Source of the DNA: Mesoplasma sp. JKS002658
Lineage (GTDB): Bacteria > Bacillota_I > Bacilli_A > Mycoplasmatales > Mycoplasmataceae
Length of the DNA stretch: 64,000 nt
Assembly: GCF_023566355.1 (NCBI RefSeq)
Contig: NZ_JAKNSW010000002.1
Coordinates: 62,001 to 126,000 of the forward strand
Direction: 5' to 3'
Shown here piece after piece: positions 734 through 18,104 of this stretch (within the stretch, counting starts at the first letter, position 1; each line of letters starts with the position of its first letter). The translations under genes were made by a program, and so were the position numbers. Below the pieces are notes generated by a model. It had not been told where the DNA came from and did no database searches. It worked only from the letters and a program-made list of their open reading frames with translations.

Positions 734-3700
734 ATGATTCAGGAAAGGAATTTAGAGGAAAATTTTGCCTCTAAATTAGAAGAGAGTGGTTGAATAAAAT
801 TAGATGACATTAGCCGAGATAATGGCAAGTTAACTAGTGTAGTTGATACCAAACTTTTAAAGAAGAAAATTATTCAAATAAATGATATTTCTGAAAAACT
901 GGCAGACAAAGCACTTTTAGAGATTCGTAAACAAAATGCTTCTTCATACCAAGAATTGGCTTTTTTGGGGTGACAATTATTAACAAATGGAGTTAAGGTT
1001 ATTGACGATGAAAGTAATAATCTTACCAAAACTATTCGCTTAATTTCTCCTTATTCTGCTCAGAACACTTATCATTATGTCCGTCAATTTAAAATTGAAA
1101 GTCTTAATAATAACGAAAAACGAATTCCTGACATTGTTTTATTTGTTAACGGATTACCTGTAGTAGTGATCGAACTAAAGAGCACTTTAGCAGAAGAAAA
1201 ACTTGATGATGCTTTTAACCAAAACCAATCACTAAAAACTTTTGCTCCCGAATTGTGAAAGTTTAATATTTTAAACATTGTTGCTAGTGATACAACGCTG
1301 TGTTATGGATCAATTAGTTCTAGTTATAAACGCATGGCTAAAATTAAAGGTTATAAAACCAGAGAGAGTCAAGAAGGGATTGATTATCTTCTCCATCCGA
1401 ATAATCTTTTTAGTTTTATTGAACTTTATTCTTACTATTCTCAAGAACAAAACGAACAAATTAAATATATTGCTGCTCCTCATCAAATTGAAGCAGTGAA
1501 AAAAACAATGCAACATTTGGATGCTAATGCTAGTGATCCTGTTAAAGGTGGAGTGATTTGGCACACTCAGGGTTCTGGTAAGTCAGTGACCATGGTTTTT
1601 TTAACTAGAGCAATTTTAAACACTTATAAAAAAGCAACCATCCTGTTAGTAACTGATCGAACTGAACTTGATGACCAACTTTATACCCGCTTTGCAAAAG
1701 CAGCTAATTACTTGAATAATACCCCGGTGCAAATTCAATCTCGTCAAGATTTAATTAATCAACTTGATCAGAAGAAAAACTTTGGGATTTATTTCACAAC
1801 GATTCAAAAATTTGGTGATCAAGTCCAGGGTGGTTTATCACAACGTGATGATATTTTTGTGTTGGTTGATGAAGCTCACCGCACCCAAAACAACTTAAGT
1901 TTTGACTGACAAGTGAACAAAGAAACCAGAGAATTAATTGAAAAATTTGGTTATGCTACTTATATGCGCAATGCTTTTCCCAACGCTCATTTTGTCGCTT
2001 TTACAGGAACACCATTAATGGGGGTAGAAAAGCAAACAACTAAAATTTTTGGTGATTATAACCATAAGTATTTAATGACTGATTCGATTGAAGACGGAAC
2101 AACAGTCAAAATCAATTACGAGTTAAGAAAAATCAATTATGAGTTTGATCAAGAATATTTACAAAAAATGGATGAGTTACAAAACGCTTATGTTGAAGAA
2201 CTTAATAAAAATGATTTAGCTTCCCAAGTAAAGGTGGATGAACTTTTACGTTCAATTAAAATTAAAGAAGTTTTAGAAAATCCCGAAATTATTAAGGCAA
2301 AGTCTCGGGATTTACTTGAGCATTATAAAAAACGTTTTCAAGTTTTACACGGAAAAGCAATGATTGTCGCAGGAACGAGAAAAGCAGCCTTTGAATACTA
2401 TCAACAGTTAAAAGCTTTAACTGCTCAGGATGATGAATTAAAGCAAATCACTCATCTTGACTGAAGTGACCAAGAAATCATTTTGGTGATGACTACGAGT
2501 AATAAAGATAACCAAGCAATGAATGAAGCAATTGTTAAAGGTGAAAAAGAACATGAGGTTGCTGAAGAGTTTAAAAAACCTGATTCTAAACATAAAATTG
2601 CGATTGTGGTCGATAAGTGGTTAACTGGTTTTGACGTACCAGATTTAGACACGATGTATCTTGATAAAATAATTAAGTGACATAATTTAATGCAAGCAAT
2701 TGCTCGCGTTAACCGGACTTATGAAAATTCAAAGTATCAAGAAGTAAAAGAAAATGGTCTAATTGTAGATTATATTGGGATTTGAAGAAAACTTCGTGAC
2801 GCCTTATTACAATATACAAAAAGAGAAAATGATCCCAATGATTTCTCCATTGAAGATGTGGAAAATGCTCATGATTCTCTAGTTCAACAACTAAAAATCA
2901 TTGAAGAAAATTACATCCCTGATTTATTCGCTTCTTATCAATCAGATTTAAAAAATAATGCTCAAGTAGCTTATCGTTTTATTATGAATGCTTGAGAACA
3001 AATTAGTAATTTAGCAATTGAAGATCGTAATCGTTTCTTGATGATGGCAAATTCAGTAAAGAAGTTTACTAAAGTTGCTTATTCGGTTTTAAGTGATGAT
3101 GAAATCTGGGCTTCAAGGGTGGTTGGTGAAGTTTATGCTTTACAGAATTCTAGCACTAGATTTGATGATGCGCGGTTATATGCCACAATTGAACAAATGA
3201 AAACTTTAACCAAACAAGCAATCTTAGTTAATGACAAACAAATTATTGTTGAAGAAGCACAAATTAATCGGGATTTGAGTGAGGTTGCAATCTTAATGCA
3301 ACAAGAAGCAAATGAATTAGCACCAACCAACCCTAAAATAGCAGTAAAGATTATTACCATGGCGATTAAAACCATTATTGATAAGGTTTCCACGATGCGA
3401 CCAATTTTTGCTGAGAAGGCTTCTGAGCGTTTACAAACAATTGTTTTGGAATTTGATAAAACTATTGATGCGGCAAACTTATTAGAAGAACTAAACCGTT
3501 TGTTTAAAGATCTGCGTCTTGATTATGACCAGTGAAGTCAAGAACCACCAGAATTACAAGCATTTATGGAAATTATTGGTGATGATGAATATTTTCAAGA
3601 AGCGAAGAATTCACCAATTGTTGAAGAAATTTCCACAAAATTAGTTAACTTAATTAAGCAACAAGGGATTGTTCAATACGACACTAATCCGCGGGTGCGA

Positions 3701-3847
3701 ACTTTAATTTTAAGAGAAATTAAGAAACTCTTATTGACAGATTATAACTATCCTCCAGAAAGATTAGGGGGAACTTCAAAGATTTTAATTGATTCAATTG
3801 ATAAACAAATTAAGTTGAATCCGCACTACTTTGAAGAAAGTATTTAG
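734..3847 (+). CDS. hsdR: Type I restriction endonuclease subunit R
   Basis: This 1037-aa protein is the ATP-dependent translocase and nuclease subunit of a type I restriction enzyme. The N-terminal nuclease has a PD-(D/E)xK pattern, with D133 in PDIVLF and E147-L-K149. The SF2 motor follows, with Walker A HTQGSGKS at 277-284 and the DEAH box VDEAHRTQ at about 378-385, then TGTPLMG and the SF2 C-terminal lobe (VDKWLTGFDVPDLDT). Length is normal for the family. The frame is uninterrupted once UGA is read as Trp. HsdM follows 15 nt downstream. A piece of its 3' region is present, inverted, at 370-450. Confidence 0.97.
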
Positions 3848-3862
3848 AAAGAGGCAAACAAT

Positions 3863-5389
3863 ATGGCACAAAATATTGAAGACATTGAAACCAAACTTTG
3901 AACTGCTGCTGATGAATTAAGAGGTAACCAGTCAGCTGAAGAATATATGCATATTATCTTAGGGGTAATTTCTTTGAAATATATTTCCGACCGGTTTAAA
4001 GTTGCCAAAGAAAAACTAAAAGAAACTGGCGAAACTTTAGCTGATTATCCCCCAAGAGATTTTTATTTAACTTTTGAAGCTTTTGTGGTTGTTGAAGAGG
4101 CGAGTTGGGATTATATTATGCAGTTTGCCAACACCAACGAAATCGGGATGAAATTAGATCACGCTTTCTTGTTATTAGAAGAAAAGAACCTTGATTTAGC
4201 AGGTTTATTTAACAAAAACTACAACAGTGAAGGGTTAGACCAAATAAAGCTTGGAAACGTAGTTAAAGTCTTTTCTGATGAAGATTTCACTCAAAAAGGA
4301 AGCGAAGATTTGGTAGGAAGAATTTATGAATTCTTTTTAGGAAAGTTTTTCAAAGACCGGGGACAAAAGGGTGGTGAGTTCTATACTCCCGAATCAATTG
4401 TAAAGTTAATGGTTAATCTTTTAAAACCGACAGGAACGATTTATGATCCTGCTTGTGGTACGGGAGGAATTTTAGTTCAAGCTAAACATTATATTGAAAA
4501 ACATGGTAGAAAGATTACTGATATCTTTGTTTATGGTCAAGAATATAATTCGGTTACTTGAAAGTTAGCAAAGTTGAACTTGGTATTGAATAGTTTCCCT
4601 TTAGAAGATGTTAAGCATCATCCAGTATTGGGAACCCGAGCAGCTGATTCGTTTGCTGCGGACCAACATAAAGGTTTGAAATTTGATTTTGCGATGGCCA
4701 ATCCCCCATTTAATATGAAAAAATGAGGGCAAGACAAGTTGTTAGATGATCCTAGGTGAGAATGAGGTCTTCCTCCAGCAAACAATGCGAACTACGCGTG
4801 GTTATCAATGATTGTTTCTAAGTTAAATCAACACGGAAAAGCCGCAGTTGTGCTTGCAAACGGTTCTTTATCTTCTTCACAAAATAATGAGTTAGAGATT
4901 CGAAAGAATTTTGTTAAGAATAATAAGGTTGATGCAATCATTGAGTTACCAGATAAGTTGTTTTATACCACGGGAATTCCTGCTTCAATTTGATTCTTTA
5001 ACAACGATAAGAAAACTGACAAGATTTTAATGATTTCTCCCAATGCTGTTAAAGGAAGAATGCGTAGTAAGAAACTTCGTGAACTAACAAATGAAGATAT
5101 CAAAGGAATTGTTGAACTCTTTGATCGTCATGAAAATGGCGAAGATATCAACAAAGAGGGAATTGCTAAGTCAGTTACTCAAAATGATTTAGCAGCAAAT
5201 GATTATTCTTTTGTCCCGGGAAGATATGTTGGTAGTGTTGAAGAAAAAGTTGATAAAGAGGCAATCAAGTCCGAAATTAAAACTTTGGCTAGTGAATTAA
5301 ATCAGTTATTAGAAGAATTTGATGAATTGGTACCTGACATAAAAAAAGCAATTGACCAAGCAATCGCTTATAACGATGATGAAGAGTAA
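3863..5389 (+). CDS. hsdM: Type I restriction-modification DNA methyltransferase subunit M
   Basis: At 508 aa this is a standard HsdM, an N6-adenine methyltransferase that works with HsdS to modify the recognition site and with HsdR to cut. The helical N-terminal domain is followed by the AdoMet-binding motif DPACGTGG (from D195) and the catalytic NPPF motif (280-283), the latter in MANPPFNMKKWGQ. The C-terminal part carries the usual IIELPDKLFYTTGIPAS segment. It is co-transcribed with hsdR. No hsdS follows on this strand before a terminator; the two hsdS genes lie beyond a convergent gene. Confidence 0.97.
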
Positions 5390-5400
5390 GCGGTAGTTTC

Positions 5401-5428
5401 AAACTCCTTAAGTAAAGAAGTTTTTTTA
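5401..5428 (+). terminator. hsdRM terminator
   Basis: AAACT-C-CTT and AAG-A-AGTTT form a stem with one mismatch and a short loop, followed by TTTTTTATT. It begins 12 nt after the hsdM stop and overlaps the stop codon of the convergent gene at 5426. Confidence 0.65.
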
Positions 5429-6049
5429 TTCTTTTACTCCTAATTGAACCATTTCACTTCATAGTTTTTGATTATTTTTTGGAGTTCAGATTCCAGCTTG
5501 ATAATTAAAAATTGAGAAAGTTAACAAAGGATAAGGAAAATTCATTTCTACTAACTTTGAAATACATTTGAAGTAATCGTTCTTCAAAGGAAGAATAACT
5601 TCACAAACCTTTTGTTTTCATGGTTGTTTATACTGAACTCCACTATAAATATCATTTAATTCAGGAACAATGAAATTATAAATTCCTCCAACCCCAACAA
5701 CAGGATTCACTAAACTACCATCAGGCATTATTTGTGGTTTTGGTTGGGGATATTCCACAATTTTAATATGCAAAACCAGGTGTTCTAACAAATTACAATA
5801 AACCAATCGTTCGGATTTTTGTCATTCAAATGGCGAAAGTTGGGCAAATTCTTTAGTTGATAGCATAATTCCTTTATCTTCATCAATATGATGAATGTAC
5901 AATCCTTCATTACCGCGACCAATCTTTTGAGTTTTACTGGTATAACTTTCATTAGTAAAGTAATTTTTAGGCACTAATCCATACTTTTTGTGAAGGTGTT
6001 TTCAACATTGTTCATAATCTCAACTTAACATTTGTTCGATTTCAGTCAT
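5426..6049 (-). CDS. HNH-like nuclease domain protein
   Basis: A 207-aa protein at the end of the reverse-strand recombinase-hsdS operon, 12 nt after hsdS. It shows an HNH-like layout: YIHHIDE with H53, H54 and E57, then LVYCN with N86, then H90 and H94 (N-x3-H-x3-H). The same pattern, with the same number of residues between H54 and N86, occurs at the N-terminus of the SNF2-type helicase at 15801 (H72 to N104). Flanking residues (YFT, SK, FEWQ/WEYQ, LVY) also match. I infer a beta-beta-alpha metal nuclease; the biological role is not known. It contains four UGA Trp codons, so it is invisible under the standard code. Confidence 0.7.
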
Positions 6050-6061
6050 TTTTTTATCCTT

Positions 6062-7045
6062 TTATCTAATTAATAAATTAACACAAAGTTGATAAAGTTT
6101 GGTTTTCTTAGCTTCAATTTCTTCAATTAGCAAGAGTAGTTTAAATAAAGTGTTGGTAATGTTTTTTCACTCAGAATTAAGTTTGAAGTAAAGCATTTCT
6201 TTTTTTGCTTTAGAAGCATGCTTAATTGTTGAACCAGTTGCATTCATTTCAATGATCTTTTTATTAGTGTTATTAAGAACGTTCAATAATATTTCCACCT
6301 TTGTTAAATAATCGGATTTCAAATTGTATAAATAACCATTAAAGCCTTCAATAAACCAATCAACTAAACCAACAGTAGCATCTAAAGAAAGTAAAATATC
6401 CCCTTTAAAGGTGTTCGGTTGATCTTTGACAAATTTACTAGAAATTCTGGTATTCAAAGTTCTTATATCAAGAAAAGGTGTTCCTGAGCTTTCAAATTCC
6501 TTTGGTCCGTTTTTACCTTTTTCAAAAGTAAGATGATTAATTAGTAGTTCATTGGTCTTTTCAATCTTATGGTTAGCAATCATTTTTAGTAATGAAATGA
6601 TTGCTTTTTTAGTGGTTTTTATCTTAGTTGAGATTGTTTCAAGAGGTTCAATAATGTCGATTATTTTTTGTTGCTCTTCTAGTGGAGGAAGGTTTATAAA
6701 ATATTGATTCCAAAAATTACTGGTTAGACGAGGTACAGCAGATCCTATACTAAAAATGGAAAAATCAATTGATGACATTAAATAATAGATGTATTTGGTT
6801 GTTGTATCATCTTTTGTTTTAAACGAAAATGCCGTGTTTTTTGTTGAATGTTTTTTGTTTGTAAAATATATGGACATAGTCCCAACCCTAGGCAAGATGA
6901 TAGAATTACTTTCAAAGGTTGGAATTTTTGTATAACCAACTATTCCCCCTGTTGCAAATATAGGGAAATCTGAATCATTCCCATTAGCGACAAAACTTTT
7001 AGAATACTTTAATTCTCCAATTTCTCCAAGTTTATAAATTGCCAT
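6062..7045 (-). CDS. hsdS: Type I restriction specificity subunit S (reverse-strand copy)
   Basis: A 327-aa HsdS. Target-recognition half 1 is about 1-120, with VGTMSIYFTNKK and IGSAVPRLTSNFWNQYFINLP. A conserved helical region, EEQQKIIDIIEPLETISTKI, follows at about 122-160. Half 2 (about 165-290) starts FEKGKNGPKEFESSGTPFLD, and a final helix, EEIEAKKTKLYQLCVNLL, closes the protein. HsdS sets the DNA target of the HsdM/HsdR complex. It starts ATGGCAATT, as the forward hsdS does, and shares with it a 29-nt exact repeat in opposite orientation. It follows the recombinase gene by 12 nt. Confidence 0.92.
6651..6679 (-). repeat. Inverted repeat arm A in hsdS (partner at 8218-8246)
   Basis: On the reverse strand this is a 29-nt sequence starting GAAGAGCAAC and ending CGACATTAT, identical base for base to 8218-8246 on the forward strand. 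Here it continues as ATTGAACCT, and that extension (6644-6663) matches 8333-8352. AATAAT-CGAC-ATTATT inside it is a small dyad, as expected of a tyrosine recombinase core. Confidence 0.85.
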
Positions 7046-7057
7046 TAAAAAACAAGG

Positions 7058-7780
7058 CTACATTGCCTTGTTATAGATTTTTCAGTTGTCTTCTAAGGAT
7101 AGGTTTAAATATCGAAAGGTTGTTTCAATTTTTTCGTGGCCTAACTGCAACATTACCATCTTAGGATTAGCACCATTTAACAATAAATGTGTTGCACTTG
7201 ATCTTCGAATTGAGTGGGGTGTAAACTGATCACCCAAAACCTCTTTAACTCACAATCTTAAAGTTTTTGTCGTGTAATCAAATGGTCTTAATTGCTTGGT
7301 TGTTTCTCAATTGTGAAAGACTTCTCTAATTTTGTTTCCTTTCCCCAAAATCCTAATGGTTTTCTTGTTTATTTCGATTATTTGATAAAGTTCTGAAGCT
7401 CTTATTCCTGTCTCAAATAAGAAGCGAATCAATAGTTTCTTTTCTGTCAATGAAACATTTTCCTCCTCTTTAACTTCGGTTTTTTTCATTAAATATTTCT
7501 TGGTAAATACCTCCATATATACCTTAGGTATTTTTGGTAATTTGATATTTTTAAAGGTATCAATTCGTTTATCTTTGCTTCACTTCATGTATGAACATAA
7601 GACATTGTAATGAGTTCAAACTGTATTTGGTGAATGATAATGTAACCTTAATTCCTTCTTTAAGCTTGCAATATTTCCATAGTATTGCTTATATTTTTTT
7701 AAAATATTTGTATAAGTAATAATTGTATTTTTCGAATAATTATTTCGTTTTAAATAATTTATAAATTCTTTTTCTTTCAT
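7058..7780 (-). CDS. Tyrosine recombinase, likely hsdS inversion enzyme
   Basis: A 240-aa integrase/XerC-type recombinase. A SAM-like N-terminal domain (about 1-95) is followed by the catalytic domain with the full set of motifs: arginine I in [10 protein letters not shown], the beta-hairpin lysine in [10 protein letters not shown]-x-x-R in [12 protein letters not shown], then [13 protein letters not shown] with the second histidine and the nucleophilic tyrosine. Its ribosome binding site is GAGGGGG. It is encoded between two oppositely oriented hsdS genes and leads the reverse-strand operon. No phage genes are near, so a dedicated specificity switch like HvsR of Mycoplasma pulmonis fits better than a prophage integrase. 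That role is an inference. Confidence 0.9.
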
Positions 7781-7851
7781 TTTCCCCCTCTTAAATACTA
7801 ATTAAAATGGCAATACGATAGAATAATAATTAGAAATTGGGAGGTTTAATA
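7781..7851. promoter_or_regulatory. Divergent promoter region between recombinase and forward hsdS
   Basis: The 71-bp gap must hold the promoters for both directions. TAGAAT at about 7820 could be a -10 for the forward hsdS, and TTGGGAGG at 7837-7844 is its ribosome binding site. An ATGGCAAT at 7807-7814 copies the first codons of both hsdS genes but stops after four codons, a possible scar of an earlier recombination. Confidence 0.4.
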
Positions 7852-8961
7852 ATGGCAATTATTGGTATACAAACAGGTAACTCGAATACAGAGGATGCCC
7901 AAGAAAAAGGTATCTATCCTTTATTTGATAGATCGCAAGTAATTAAAAGAAGTAACAAGTATCTTTTCGATGGTGAGTACGTAATCGTGGCTGGAGAAGG
8001 AAACTTTAAACCAAAGTATTACAATGGAAAATTTGATTTGCATCAAAGAGCATATTGTATAAAATCGACAGATACTACGAAATTAAGTAATAAATATTTG
8101 TATTATTTAATTTTGAAAAATTATCAAATTTTCAATAATTATTCCGTTGGTTCAACTGTGCCATCGTTAAGACTTTCTAGTTTTAATTGGATTAACAAAA
8201 TATCTTTTCCGGCTTTTGAAGAGCAACAAAAAATAATCGACATTATCGCACCAAAAGAAGAGTTATTTTTAAAATTTTCAAACACGATTAGAGTTGATAA
8301 TTTTGAACATACGAAAAATGATCTTAAAAATTTAATCGACATTATTGAACCTATTGAGAAATTGATAGATTCGATAAATTTTGCCAAAAAAAAGACTATT
8401 TCTTTGATTTCGAAAATGGGTGAGTTATCACTTTTGGCTTCAAAGAATATTGAATCAATTAAATTTGATAAACAAAAAGAAAAGTATATTGAATCAGGAA
8501 ATTATGTTTCAACTGGAAATATTGGTGATTTCAATAATCTTATTGAAAAGTTTGAACAATTATCATCAAATCCGACTAGAGCTAGACTTAAATTTAAAAA
8601 GGATACCCTTTACATTTCTAAATTAGATGGCGAAAAGAAAATTCTATATCTAAATAAAGATCGAGATTTAGTTCTTTCTAATGGTATGTGAGGAATTGAA
8701 GGAAATGAGGATAGTAAATATTCTTTATATGCTTTTCTACTATCAAATACTTTCTATGAAGAAAAGACACTCAAATCAACAGGAACTACGATGAGAGGAT
8801 TGAATGACAATACTCTAAAACAAATTATTAATTATTATTCGATTACAAAGAAACACAATTGATTAGTAAAAAAATATTTTGTCTACTTGTCTTTCTTAAC
8901 AGAATTATTAGAAGTATTTTATAAAATCAAAAATAAGTTCATTAAGTTTTTTGTTGTTTAG
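7852..8961 (+). CDS. hsdS: Type I restriction specificity subunit S (forward-strand copy)
   Basis: A 369-aa HsdS. Half 1 (about 1-118) ends VGSTVPSLRLSSFNWINKISFP. The conserved region begins EEQQKIIDIIAP but then repeats as NLIDIIEPIEKLIDSI about 38 residues later, so the linker is longer than in the reverse copy. Half 2 starts FDKQKEKYIESGNYVSTGNIGD and ends with the STGTTMRGLN element. The ATG at 7852 was chosen because GGGAGG lies 7 nt upstream; a TTG at 7837 falls inside that site. It has its own upstream promoter region. The two hsdS proteins differ fully in their recognition halves. Confidence 0.92.
8218..8246 (+). repeat. Inverted repeat arm B in hsdS (partner at 6651-6679)
   Basis: A 29-nt exact copy, in inverted orientation, of 6651-6679. 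Recombination between the two arms would invert about 1.6 kb, including the recombinase gene, and would swap the first recognition half of the two hsdS genes. Confidence 0.85.
8333..8352 (+). repeat. Third copy of the hsdS repeat core
   Basis: These 20 nt match 6644-6663 (inverted) and share the 13-nt core TAATCGACATTAT with arm B, 100 nt upstream in direct orientation. It encodes LIDIIEP of the duplicated linker. Confidence 0.7.
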
Positions 8962-9054
8962 AGAATTAAAATTTTTTGAGTAAATATTTAACTGTTATTT
9001 GATTAATTAAATATCTTAAATTAAGATTAAATAAAGAAATGATGAGGTTTTATG

Positions 9055-9420: not shown

Positions 9421-12400
9421 GTGCCAAATTTTGAACAAACAAAAAAAGACAAGAATTACACGAAACTTTTGAACAATTTATTAGATATTAGGAGGGCCGA
9501 TTCCTCCATTTTAACCAAAACATCGACTAATAAAAATTTTGATTTGTTTACTATGTTTCAAAACGATGTTAAATGTCTTGATCTTATATTTGATGAAAAA
9601 GAATTTACTCTACAATTAACAACAAAATGAATGGAAGAGTTTATAGATGAACTTAAGGAAGTTTATCAAAATTTTGAAAATCATTCTGAATATAGTTTTT
9701 TGGTGAAACAAAGAATAGACAGATTGTGTCAGAAATACGATTGAAAATTATCAAAAAAACAACAAAACGGTTTAGAACTTTCAGATAAAAGTGAAATAGT
9801 CAGAGAAACTTTATTAGAAATTGTTGATTCTTTAGAAATTGAACGACAAAAATTTATTAAAACATGAACTAAATATGCGAAAGAAGTTAATGATGAAATT
9901 GATCAAAAAGGCACATCCCCTTTGTACGTCGCTACTTGTTTCTTAAAAGGAACTAATCAGAATCAATCTATGGGATTTAATGCACCGTTGTTATTGAGAG
10001 AATTAAATATTAACGTTTTAAAAGATTCAGTAAAGATAACAAGTAGTTCTGATTGAATAATTAATGAAAAGTTAGTTTTTCATTTTGAAAGAATTGGTTA
10101 TACATTACCTAAAAAACTTGATTTTGAAGATGAAAAGTCTTTTTCAGAAATTTTAAATGATGTTTTATCAAGAATTCAATTAGATGCACCAGCGAAAAAT
10201 GGTTATTTCATTTCAAAATTTAAAAACTTTAAGAAAGAAGAGATTTCTAATAAAAAAATCGAAATAATGCCAGGAATCGTCATGGGTTGATTTAATCCTG
10301 TTGGGGGTTATTTAAGAGAATTAATGCAAAAAATTATTGATGATAATGAAATTGACCAGATTATTGATACTAATCCAATTAAAAGTATTTATCAAAACAA
10401 AATTATGACTGAGATCGAGAATAATTATGAAAAATTAGTTAAAATTCAAGAATTGAATTATGCCCAAGACAAAGCATTGGTTTCAGCATTAAATCAAGAT
10501 ACTATCATCTGAGGTCCTCCAGGCACTGGTAAATCACAGGTTATTGCTAATATTATCGCCAATATTTTGTACACAAATAAACGAGCCATTGTCATGTCAC
10601 AAAAAATGGCTGCTTTAAGTGTTATTAAAAAAAGATTGGGTAAATTAGCTAAGTTTATTCTTTTTTCTTTCGATTCAAAACAAATGAAAAAAGAAGATTT
10701 CTACGAACAGTTAAATGATTTTTTAAAAACTGTAGAAAAATTCGACGATTCTGATATTAATTATCGAAAAGCTAAACCTTTAATCTCTAAAGAAAAAATC
10801 AATATTCTTAATTTTGTAGAACGTCTTAAAGCAAAAGGCGAATATGATAGCATTGTTAAGATTTATAAGTTGAATGGTAATAAGTATGACCAGATGAAAC
10901 AAATTTCTTTTTTAAATAAGAATTACTATTATCCGGAAAATGCCACAAATGATCAAAATTACTTTTTAGAGAGTTTGGCAAATCTAAATAACATAAAGAA
11001 AAATGGTTATATTTTTTGATGAAAATATAAAGATTCTTTTATAGAAGAAGTTAATAAAGCTTTTCAAACAATGAATGATCATGAGATTCATGATTTAGAA
11101 AAGTATATTGCTCCTTTTAGAAAAACTTCGTTTGATAACGTCCGATTAGTTGGCGAAATTCCAAAAGTGTTAGGAAATGATGAAACAGATTTAGATTTTC
11201 AAAGTGATGAGGATTATCTGGAGAATTATTTAGCTACCAAGATTGCCAAAAAAATTGAGAATTGAAGTTTTTTTGATAGAGATAATCTTGTTAAATACAA
11301 TAAGTTTGCTAGTGCAATTAGAGCTAAGCGAAGATTGCCTAATAAATTCATTAATGATCATCTTGAAATTCTCAATGAATTGTTTCCGATTATTGTTACA
11401 ACTCCTGAACAAATTTTTGTTGGTTATGAAAAGAATTATTTTGATTATGCAGTGGTTGATGAAGCTTCGCAAATTTTTTTAGAAGTTGGTTTACCGATTT
11501 TATACCTAGCAAAAACAAAAATTTTAGCTGGTGATCCAGAGCAAATGCGCCCAACTTCTTGATTTTCAACAAGAGATGTTGCTGATGAATATGATGAAGA
11601 GGACGTTGAAGAGAATGCGCTTTCTTTATTGGATTATGCAATTGATAAAGGAGTTAACCAAGTTTTATTGAATCAAAATTATCGTTCTAGTTCTGCTGCT
11701 TTGATGTCCTTCTCTTCAAAAGAATACTACAACTCTGAGTTAGAAGTGATTGACAAGCAAACACTTCTTGATGAATTTTCTTTTACCAATAAACCAATTA
11801 AAATTGTTCAAGTGAATGGCGAATGAAACAAAGGAACTAACGAACAAGAAGCAAGAGAAGTTGTTAAGATTCTAAAACAAACTCATGAAAACTATGAAAA
11901 CATTATTGTCTTAGCCTTTAATATTAAACAAAAACAATTAATTGAAGAAATGATTTCATTTTCTGAATCAAAAATTTGAAATAAGGTGTTAGAACGAAAA
12001 ATAAGTATTCGCAATATTGAAAATATCCAAGGAGACGAAGCGGATTTAGTAATCATGTCAGTAGTTTATGCTCCTGAAACAAGAGTTATGGGGACCTATG
12101 TTGTTCGAAATGGCGGAAGAAATGCCTTGAATGTGGCGGTTTCGCGCGCCAAAGAACAAATGATAATTGTCAAATCAGTTAATGCTAATAATTTGGCTAA
12201 TGGGTCAGGAGAAAACTATGAAACCTTTAGAAGATGACTTTATTTTTTAGATCTTGATAATCCAAAACAAAAAACTTATTCAATTACTGAAGTGAAACGA
12301 ATAGAAAGTTATAGTGAATCTGATTTCGAAGAAACAGTTTATCAAAGATTATTAACCGATCTAAAACTTATCCAAGAAGAATTAAAATTGTTTCAACAAT

Positions 12401-12723
12401 ATCCGATTGGTTCAAAAAGAATTGATATTGCTGTTTTAGATGAAAATGACAATTATATTTTAGGAATCGAAGTAGATGGTTATAAATACCATTCGACAAT
12501 TGATAAGTATTTAAAAGACCTTTCTCGAGAAAATTTTATTAAATCTAAAGGATATGATATTACTAGAATCAAAGATATAAATTGGTATTTAGATTCAGAT
12601 GCTGAGGTTAGAAGAATTGAATTTTTAATAAATGATAAATTAAAGCAAAGTAATCTTAATCGAAATGATGAGAAACAATTAATTGAAAATAATGATTCAA
12701 ATAAATATTGATGAGACCAATAA
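9421..12723 (+). CDS. SF1 helicase with C-terminal Vsr/MTES_1575-like nuclease
   Basis: A single 1100-aa frame under code 4. Walker A is GPPGTGKS at 365-372. Walker B is VVDEASQI (D680, E681), followed by GDPEQMRP (from G704), then [12 protein letters not shown] and the arginine-finger motif [10 protein letters not shown] (about 904-913), all typical of UPF1-like SF1 helicases. The last 140 residues form a small nuclease of the very-short-patch/MTES_1575 type: RIDIAVLDE with D1002, then [10 protein letters not shown] with E1017 and D1019. GTG 9421 has AGGGAGG 10 nt upstream. Helicases of this build fused to such nucleases are common in defence islands; the phage target is unknown. The N-terminal 350 residues are unassigned. 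Confidence 0.88.
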
Positions 12724-15800: not shown

Positions 15801-18104
15801 ATGATATATTATTTAAATAAAATGGAAAAAAAATTAAACACATTGAATCAGAATATTAAAAATTCTGATACTTACAAGAATTTATCAAAAAGTTATGAGT
15901 TATTGGTTCCTAAACTGAAAAAAGACAATGGATTTGTAAAATACGATTATTTTACTACCAAAAACTGTGTTTCAAAAAACTTAAAAAATTCAAAAAGTGG
16001 TTTTGAAATTCATCACGTTAAAGAAACTGAGAGTAGTAATTTGTCTATTTCTTTTTATGCCCAAAGAGCAAAATGAGAGTATCAAATTAAAGAAAATTTA
16101 GTATATGTAAATAAGATTCAGCACATAATTTTGCATTTAAAAATACTAATTGAAAATGGAATTGGAAGAGGTTTTGAAATAACGTTAATTAATTTCCAAG
16201 CTTTAGTAAAGAACTGTTTAACTAAAGAAAATGGAATTTACGGCATTGAAAAAGAAAATTTTAAACAATGTAAGAAAGAGATTCCTTATTTCGTCTTGTG
16301 TTTTTTGTATTTATATATGAGTTTTTACAAATTAAAAACCGATGATGAAAATTTAAAAAATTTGAAAGCGTATCTTTCGGTTATAAATGGACATGTTTTA
16401 AAAATTTATCATCAAATGAGAAAGAAGAAAGAATATGAGTATTTACCTAAAGATTATAAGAATTTTATCAATAAACTTGATTTTGATAATTTAGATCAAA
16501 AGGTATTTAGGGATTATTTGAAAGGATGATCTCCCAAAAAACCGACGAATCTTATCGAAGAAAAAGAGGAAAAAATTAGTTTTAAGAAACCGGAAAAGAT
16601 TTTTCACGATATCAACGGAAATCATATTAAATATAATCAAAAAGAAAGTTTGATACCTAAAGACTACCAAAAAGATGCTATTGATAAACTTTATAATCAA
16701 GATCGGGGTTTAATTACCTTTCAAATGGGACTTGGAAAAACACTTACTGCTGTTTTATTAATAGAAAAATGGCAATGTAAAGATTTACTAATTATTTGTC
16801 CAGATAAAGTCAAATCTAATTGAGAAAATTATTTTTTTTATCATACATCTACTCAGGATGAGAATTATAGAAGATACTCCTATAATAAAAATCATATTTC
16901 AATAATTACTCCTGAAGAAATATTAAGTAAGTTTAACTATCAGTATGACATCGATCAAAATAATGAGTTGTTTAAATACGAAAATATTATTATTGATGAA
17001 ATTCAAAAATTTTCTGCCACTTACTCAGCAAAAGCAAATGCTTTGTACAAATTAAGTATTAATGCAGATAAAGTTTTATTGTTATCTGGCAATTCGATGT
17101 TATATGGAATGAATAGATTTCTCACCATTTATCGAATTCTAACCAATTGCGAAACTCCTATATTTGATTTGGCTAGATATCTAAAAAAAGATCATGGTTT
17201 CAATTCGATTATTCTTCCATCGGAATTAAATTTATATAAAAATCAGCATTGACCGTGCACGAATGAAAATTGTAAGGGAGGGAGACTTTCGTTAATAAAT
17301 TCTCTGACTGGTCCTTTTAAATATTGCAACAAATGTAGTTTGATTTATTCATATGATATCGAAACAGAAGAATTTGTTTTAACTAATAAAAAGTTTCGCA
17401 AAGATATGTCGAGCAAAGCCAATATTAAAAACGAAATTCAGAAAATCAAATCGATGGAAGAACTTGAAGATAAAATTGCAGAGATTTCTAATACAAAAAT
17501 GTTAGGTATCGAAGAGAGAAAACGTATTGTGAAAATAAAGACCGATTTAGCATATCATGAATTTTGTAAAACTAAGAAAGAAAAGGATGGTAAACTTGTG
17601 AAAACTCCGTTGAATATGCCTTATAAAAGAATTGTGTGACCAGAAAATATTGACAATAAAATCAAAAAATTAAATCAATTAATAAAACATAATCAAGAAT
17701 CAATTTTGGTTTTTTATAATTTTAGTGAAGAATTGTCTACTCTTGAATCATTTTTTAACAATAAAGGTTATTTAATTTATAAAATTAATGGTGAAGAAAG
17801 TGGTCTTGATGAGTTCAAAAATAACAATTCAAAAAATCAAAAAATTGTTTTACTGTGTCAAACTGATGCTGCTGGTGTTGGTGTTGAGGGGTTACAAGAT
17901 AGCATTCATATTTGTTATTTTTTCTCAATTCCTAAAAATTATTCTCTTTTTGAACAAGCAAAAGCTCGTATTTATCGAATTGGTCAAAAGAAAGATGTTA
18001 GTATATTTTCTTTATTTACTAAATTTGAAAAAAACTTATATAATAAAAAGCGTAATTTAACAGAATATCAAGACGAAACATCCGAGGAAAACGACTTGTA
18101 TTAA
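15801..18104 (+). CDS. SNF2-type helicase with N-terminal HNH-like domain
   Basis: A 767-aa frame. Residues about 45-115 match the HNH-like protein at 5426 without gaps across the active pattern: IHH (H71, H72), E75, LVYVN (N104), H108, H112. The SNF2 motor follows: Walker A-like QMGLGKT (308-314), DEIQ in place of DEAH (399-402), then CTNENC and CNKC, a likely zinc knuckle inserted near 487-513, and motif VI QAKARIYRIGQ (719-729). ATG 15801 lacks a visible ribosome binding site; ATG 15822 is an alternative. The AIPR gene follows after 87 nt. A nuclease-translocase acting on DNA is a reasonable inference. Confidence 0.85.

Follow-up and report, generated by a model that had tools for sequence, protein, structure and literature searches.

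A putative self-inverting int cassette with two classes of recombination site as a candidate hsdS switch in Mesoplasma sp. JKS002658

Introduction

The type I restriction-modification locus of Mesoplasma sp. JKS002658 contains two specificity genes (hsdS1 and hsdS2) that diverge around a gene for a tyrosine recombinase (int), which raises the question of whether these genes are switched by inversion, at which sites, and which of them is expressed. The locus lies in a stretch of 64,000 nucleotides (nt) of contig NZ_JAKNSW010000002.1 (positions 62,001 to 126,000), referred to as the window, and coordinates are those of the window unless a related locus (L number) is named. A first-pass annotation of the window proposed phase-variable type I specificity by site-specific inversion; this reading is well supported by the comparative evidence given here, but the proposal was incomplete on the sites and on expression. 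The sequence comparisons make it probable that int, a candidate promoter, a terminator and two classes of site form a self-flipping cassette, which would act as a phase-variable hsdS switch with one HsdS made at a time.

Inversion of hsdS genes with a local tyrosine recombinase is established in pneumococcus (PMC4948785, PMC7096588) and has been surveyed (PMC7394358). By the definition of the survey, a type I system is inverting if it has two or more different hsdS genes that carry exact inverted repeats, 20 nt or longer, ahead of the recognition halves, between them, or in both places.

Results

The specificity genes, the recombinase gene and the repeat from which the first proposal started are as follows.

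6062..7045, minus strand: hsdS1, 327 amino acids (aa), short linker; predicted to be silent in the sequenced orientation (Methylase_S; upstream terminator, no Shine-Dalgarno sequence)
7058..7780, minus strand: int, Xer-like tyrosine recombinase of 240 aa, inside the putative invertible cassette (Phage_integrase, Pfam)
7852..8961, plus strand: hsdS2, 369 aa, long linker; predicted to be expressed (Methylase_S; Shine-Dalgarno sequence GGGAGG; HsdS fold by AlphaFold2 and Foldseek)
6651..6679, plus strand: left arm of the 29-nt inverted repeat, exact reverse complement of 8218..8246
8218..8246, plus strand: right arm of the 29-nt inverted repeat, exact reverse complement of 6651..6679

The hsdS genes are divergent around an intact int, as annotated, but int lies on the same strand as hsdS1 and stops 12 nt short of it. 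The exact 29-nt inverted repeat said to link the two genes is borne out, as inverted repeats do not exceed 18 nt when 6000-9050 is shuffled 200 times with dinucleotides preserved. Two distinct hsdS genes thus share exact inverted repeats of 29 nt and 20 nt at the central joint, as in the inverting type I systems of the survey. The first recognition halves, described earlier as unrelated, instead match at 35% over about 120 aa, the shared motif included.

A comparison of the loci described below reveals that paired hsdS genes share sequence at their start codons as well as at the central joint. The 29-nt repeat had been taken as the switch site; the repeat is real, but it covers only part of the actual site, a 24-bp sequence that falls into two classes, start and central. 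The alignment of 79 copies across loci as 9-6-9 (arm, core, arm) yields the consensus GTTYAATAA-TGNCNA-TTATTTTTT, and five copies are present in the window, at both hsdS start codons, once at the central joint of hsdS1 and twice at that of hsdS2.

6646..6669, plus strand: hsdS1 central site, GTTCAATAA TGTCGA TTATTTTTT (site alignment)
7030..7053, minus strand: hsdS1 start site, GTTTTTTAA TGGCAA TTTATAAAC (site alignment)
7844..7867, plus strand: hsdS2 start site, GTTTAATAA TGGCAA TTATTGGTA (genome scans and site alignment)
8228..8251, minus strand: hsdS2 central copy 1, GTGCGATAA TGTCGA TTATTTTTT, with two arm changes and overlapping the 29-nt repeat (site alignment)
8327..8350, minus strand: hsdS2 central copy 2, GTTCAATAA TGTCGA TTAAATTTT (genome scans and site alignment)

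In the right-hand copy of the 29-nt repeat one arm of the site is altered; a better match to the site is found 99 nt further on. This second central copy in hsdS2, exact over 20 nt, and the start-codon sites were absent from the earlier annotation; the start-site repeat between hsdS1 and hsdS2 is short in the source species. The central 20-mer TAATCGACATTATTGAACCT has four genome matches with at most three mismatches, all in the locus, and its reversed control has none. One of the four is the hsdS2 start site on the opposite strand, and therefore start codon and central joint carry the same site, which within a gene points one way at the former and the other way at the latter. An assignment of the two as parallel repeats was rejected, since this antiparallel match is better than the partial parallel one. 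The 18-nt consensus GTTYAATAATGKCRATTW has three exact matches in the 768-kilobase (kb) genome, all at the locus; six more appear at two mismatches, of which two are the remaining locus sites and four, located elsewhere, correspond to the control level. A further ATGGCAAT at 7807-7814, about 45 nt upstream of the hsdS2 start, is possibly a remnant of an older start site.

Searches with Int as a single protein and as an alignment, in 320 genomes of the order and a named genome collection, reveal 16 hsd-linked loci with this Int family. In 14 of these, hsdR and hsdM are followed by two outward-facing hsdS genes that flank int. In L033 one hsdS belongs to the hsdRM operon and faces a second hsdS, and int lies outside; L034 is a partial locus. 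The named loci are those of Spiroplasma platyhelix (L029), Spiroplasma sp. JKS002669 (L075), a Spiroplasma metagenome-assembled genome (L076), Williamsoniiplasma lucivorax (L027) and M. todarodis (L077).

The cores of the sites are clearly paired within loci. In the window the start pair has TGGCAA and the central set TGTCGA; across loci, start cores are TGGCAA, TGGCTA, TGGGAA, TGGGTG and TGATTA, and central cores are TGTCGA, TGTCAA, TGTCTA, TATCAA and TATCTA. Cores are identical between paired hsdS genes in 15/15 start pairs and 16/16 central pairs, a result that none of 20,000 permutations reaches, and the start core equals the central core in 0/15 loci although the arms are common to both. 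Third codon positions at the central sites are 91% identical within a locus versus 67% between loci (0 of 2000 permutations), whereas control codons (identical amino acids outside the sites) give 66% within and 60% between loci. In the diverged locus L079, both site classes are altered at the same arm positions in both arms, and the start-site DNA of L038/L039 is conserved although its reading frame is another one (FNNGYY). Additionally, the four hsdS genes of Spiroplasma sp. JKS002669 (L075:7089-12557) fall into two pairs; start cores and central cores agree between the members of a pair and differ from those of the other pair, as if the pairs were independently switchable.

Expression signals are found on both sides of int in the window.

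7051..7072, minus strand: intrinsic-terminator-like hairpin AACAAGGC-AATGTA-GCCTTGTT with a T-run, which closes int and extends into the hsdS1 start site
7839..7844, plus strand: Shine-Dalgarno sequence GGGAGG of hsdS2 (sequence)
7819..7824, plus strand: candidate -10 box TAGAAT of an hsdS2 promoter (sequence reading)

TAAAAT-like hexamers occur at a similar place in relatives, and a scan for consensus sigma-70 promoters gives no excess over shuffles. The hsdS on the 3' side of int is preceded by a terminator hairpin in 12/12 loci, with stem sequences that differ between species, and by a Shine-Dalgarno sequence in 0/12; on the 5' side a Shine-Dalgarno sequence is present in 10/12 loci and there is no convincing terminator. 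The side bias is significant for the terminator (Fisher p = 7e-7) and for the Shine-Dalgarno sequence (p = 7e-5), with species that are not fully independent. The hsdS1 of the window has the hairpin upstream and no Shine-Dalgarno sequence, and the off copy of L038/L039 lacks a start codon and is immediately preceded by a stop. Because one end of the invertible segment carries expression signals and the other end the int terminator, one hsdS would be on and the other off; in the window, hsdS2 is predicted to be on and hsdS1 silent.

Both orientations of int exist among the relatives (for instance, L029 versus L076 and L075): int is directed at hsdM in 10 loci and faces the other way in 4, and the expression signals flip with int. 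A fixed orientation, with int always towards hsdM and never inverting, held for the first seven loci and was rejected on the four opposite cases. In L029 and L076, hsdR-hsdM is collinear over 4,675 nt at 81%, and the int cassette is inverted over 831 nt at 85%, with ends that coincide with the start sites. The inverted-cassette pattern is also found in L029/L075, L038/L039 and L074/L030. The first halves of hsdS2 in the window and hsdS1 of L027 are 63% alike over the first 188 aa, with second halves of different families, and related first halves occur on either side of int with different second halves.

In tyrosine recombinases, strand exchange requires identical cores. From this general property we infer that recombination is restricted to like cores, so that Int would join start with start and central with central sites. 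Inversion between the start sites (about 0.8 kb) would move the expression signals to the other hsdS, and inversion between central sites (about 1.6 or 1.7 kb) would join the promoter and the first recognition half to the other second half. The choice between central copies 1 and 2 would determine whether the following module stays or moves.

8237..8335, plus strand: linker module of 99 nt (33 aa), between the cores of the two hsdS2 central sites

Simulated inversions at the cores leave all open reading frames (ORFs) open. The start inversion hands the Shine-Dalgarno sequence to hsdS1, after the central inversion the expressed gene consists of first half b and second half a, and combined inversions express all four pairings. 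When central copy 2 is used instead of copy 1, the 33-aa linker moves and the products are 336 and 360 aa long. One HsdS would thus be made at a time, from four combinations of halves or eight with the linker; int would be transcribed in both cassette orientations, and the outcome would be a cell population with differing methylation and restriction specificities. All long-linker hsdS genes measured have a module of 33 aa. In the AlphaFold2 model of hsdS2 (mean predicted local distance difference test, pLDDT, 86), which matches known HsdS structures in Foldseek (best match 1ydx), the linker forms an extra helix and a loop before the long spacer helix. A strict dependence of linker length on the first recognition domain was rejected, as it is true for close pairs only.

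The window Int carries the Phage_integrase domain with the catalytic R, HxxR, H and Y of Xer-like tyrosine recombinases, and the residues R127, H189, R192, H215 and Y224 are invariant across an alignment of 10 homologues. Its matches to XerA/XerC types are all below the cut-off. It has no match to NF007371, an NCBIfam model of tyrosine-type DNA invertases used as a stand-in for the PsrA/CreX type that may not represent PsrA; the NF007371 search did not recover mycoplasma psrA-type genes. A second Xer-like recombinase, probably a housekeeping enzyme, is encoded away from hsd in the source genome (L024:6936-7667, G000:C2 about 151936-152667; 35-38% identity), and a congener (L025) has a similar gene. 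The search for a second strain gave only a phage-borne relative and a weak match among viral contigs and nothing among plasmids. In the former, a tailed-phage contig with portal, head and tape-measure genes, the recombinase (L110:7992-8693) belongs to the hsd-linked family at 57% identity, and no consensus site is present on the stretch of the contig examined. A second member of the Int family in G025 (L031:7580-8344) lies between a large ORF and a lipoprotein-like gene, with no adjacent hsdS. In Mycoplasmoides fastidiosum (L081:9745-11712), a distant Int lies beside broken hsdM and hsdS remnants and one site-like sequence, and is perhaps a decayed version of the hsd-int locus.

Discussion

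Several points weigh against a self-flipping cassette that allows one HsdS at a time. The right arm of the hsdS2 start site (TTATTGGTA) and the left arm of central copy 1 have diverged, which may make some recombination reactions slow in the source species. Because the hsdS1 ATG lies 12 nt after the int stop, read-through into hsdS1 or its coupling to int is possible. The orientation count of 10:4 is uneven, and the model of hsdS1 (pLDDT 57) is too uncertain for a comparison of linker geometry. Additionally, attempts to obtain hsd rearrangements in M. agalactiae, at a locus with a differently described int, failed (PMC2824730).

The diverged arms would also be expected if the switch was once active and has become locked, or nearly so, in the source species through drift of the hsdS2 start site and central copy 1. 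This is unlikely, since the cores are intact and identical, the hsdS1 central site and central copy 2 have perfect left arms, and the right arm is comparably altered in L027, which has the same family of recognition domain, so that this arm may vary freely.

A classical hsdS shufflon, in which only the central repeats invert, both genes are expressed, two specificities coexist and the similarity at the start codons is incidental, would account for the 29-nt repeat at the central joint and for the two intact ORFs. It is quite improbable: the start sites match the central site inversely, covary with it, persist in another frame and bound the inverted cassette in relatives, and one hsdS stands behind a terminator without a Shine-Dalgarno sequence in all 12 loci.

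That there is no switching, the hsdS genes being paralogues with a conserved protein motif and int a mobile-element relic inserted between them, draws on the conserved HsdS motif EEQQKIIDII (identical at the DNA level by codon usage alone with P about 0.024, which leaves protein conservation a weak yet possible source of the 29-nt identity) and on family members without hsd (L031) or in a phage contig (L110), and is very improbable, as the comparative data argue strongly against it: synonymous positions are homogenised within loci, catalytic residues are invariant, and both orientations exist with boundaries at the sites.

Within the self-flipping cassette, we hold at even balance the fuller proposal that one recombinase drives two nested inversions kept separate by their 6-nt cores. 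The outer would exchange halves and linker length, possibly with the gap between half-sites, and the inner would turn the promoter and terminator, giving one of up to eight HsdS at a time, with the L075 pairs behaving as if switched independently.

In fimS-type switches, an invertible promoter segment decides which neighbour is expressed. The mpl genes of M. penetrans are likewise described as having invertible promoters, as cited in PMC2268961. The window cassette resembles both in that a promoter-bearing invertible segment would select the expressed neighbour, and differs in that a second, nested site pair in the coding regions would also recombine the expressed protein.

A recombinase gene among hsdS genes, which had been put forward as a new arrangement, is already known: the pneumococcal cod locus contains psrA (PMC7096588), and psrA of M. 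hominis lies between S genes (PMC11096450). Like the window locus, cod/SpnIII (ivr) with PsrA/CreX is a type I system with several hsdS genes, inverted repeats and a recombinase gene in the locus, and its halves are exchanged by inversion, as is predicted for the window. The pneumococcal repeats are of 15, 85 and 298 bp, whereas one 24-bp site with two core variants serves both start and central positions in the window; unlike cod, the window cassette would also invert the Shine-Dalgarno sequence, candidate promoter and terminator, so that expression itself moves. In M. pulmonis, hvsR is located away from hsd, and its product inverts vsa as well (Sitaraman and Dybvig, as cited in PMC2268961 and PMC9465063). 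By that description, both mollicute type I systems have hsdS genes in opposite orientations and a tyrosine recombinase as the inverting enzyme, the one in the window being predicted, and they differ in that int of the window lies inside the cassette, with consensus sites only at the locus, rather than acting remotely on a second one.

For the hsd loci of M. agalactiae, M. bovis and M. hominis with int or psrA, switching has been proposed (PMC9465063, PMC2824730, PMC11096450). By published description, these resemble the window locus in having a recombinase gene inside a cluster of several hsdS genes, and the M. agalactiae int is set apart as close to a Bifidobacterium integrase; no site, core or promoter-flip model was found in the three papers. 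The open literature (subscription papers lay outside the search) yielded no account of a promoter-terminator-recombinase cassette that inverts at hsdS, or of an hsdS switch in Spiroplasma or Williamsoniiplasma, and the cassette with two core-distinct site classes seems to be undescribed.

For hsdS switching in Spiroplasma, Williamsoniiplasma and their relatives, the comparison defines a site exactly enough to be tested and a logic by which one hsdS is expressed at a time, and it suggests how a system with two hsdS genes avoids two simultaneous specificities. The locus would also be a natural example of one recombinase with site pairs separated by their cores, and it may show how type I enzymes change their spacer length by a genetic switch.

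Other features of the locus

The gene order is hsdR(+), hsdM(+), an ORF with a SAV1803 domain(-), hsdS1(-), int(-) and hsdS2(+). TGA encodes Trp (code 4) in the source genome, and all genes of the locus are open under this code. The locus is a type I restriction-modification system in that hsdR, hsdM and hsdS are intact with the expected domains, and the genome has no Methylase_S genes beyond hsdS1 and hsdS2.

734..3847, plus strand: hsdR, restriction/translocase subunit, intact in code 4 (Pfam HSDR_N, SWI2_SNF2, T1R_D3-like; ORF)
3863..5389, plus strand: hsdM, adenine methyltransferase subunit, intact (Pfam N6_Mtase, HsdM_N)
5426-6049, minus strand: SAV1803-domain ORF between hsdM and hsdS1 (domain match)

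The SAV1803-related domain, which stands alone at 5426-6049, also forms the N-terminus of an SNF2-type helicase 10 kb away (15801-18104). The gene at 9421-12723 encodes a helicase with DUF4011/AAA_11/AAA_12 and an MTES_1575 nuclease domain that resembles parts of anti-phage Hhe and ProA, and a related helicase is inserted between hsdM and hsdS1 of the same locus type in L032. A 91-nt inverted repeat (370-460 and 3499-3589, 95% complementary) places a 3' fragment of hsdR in antisense upstream of hsdR, where the copy at 370-460 adjoins a short ORF (218-364) that looks truncated and matches no Pfam family.
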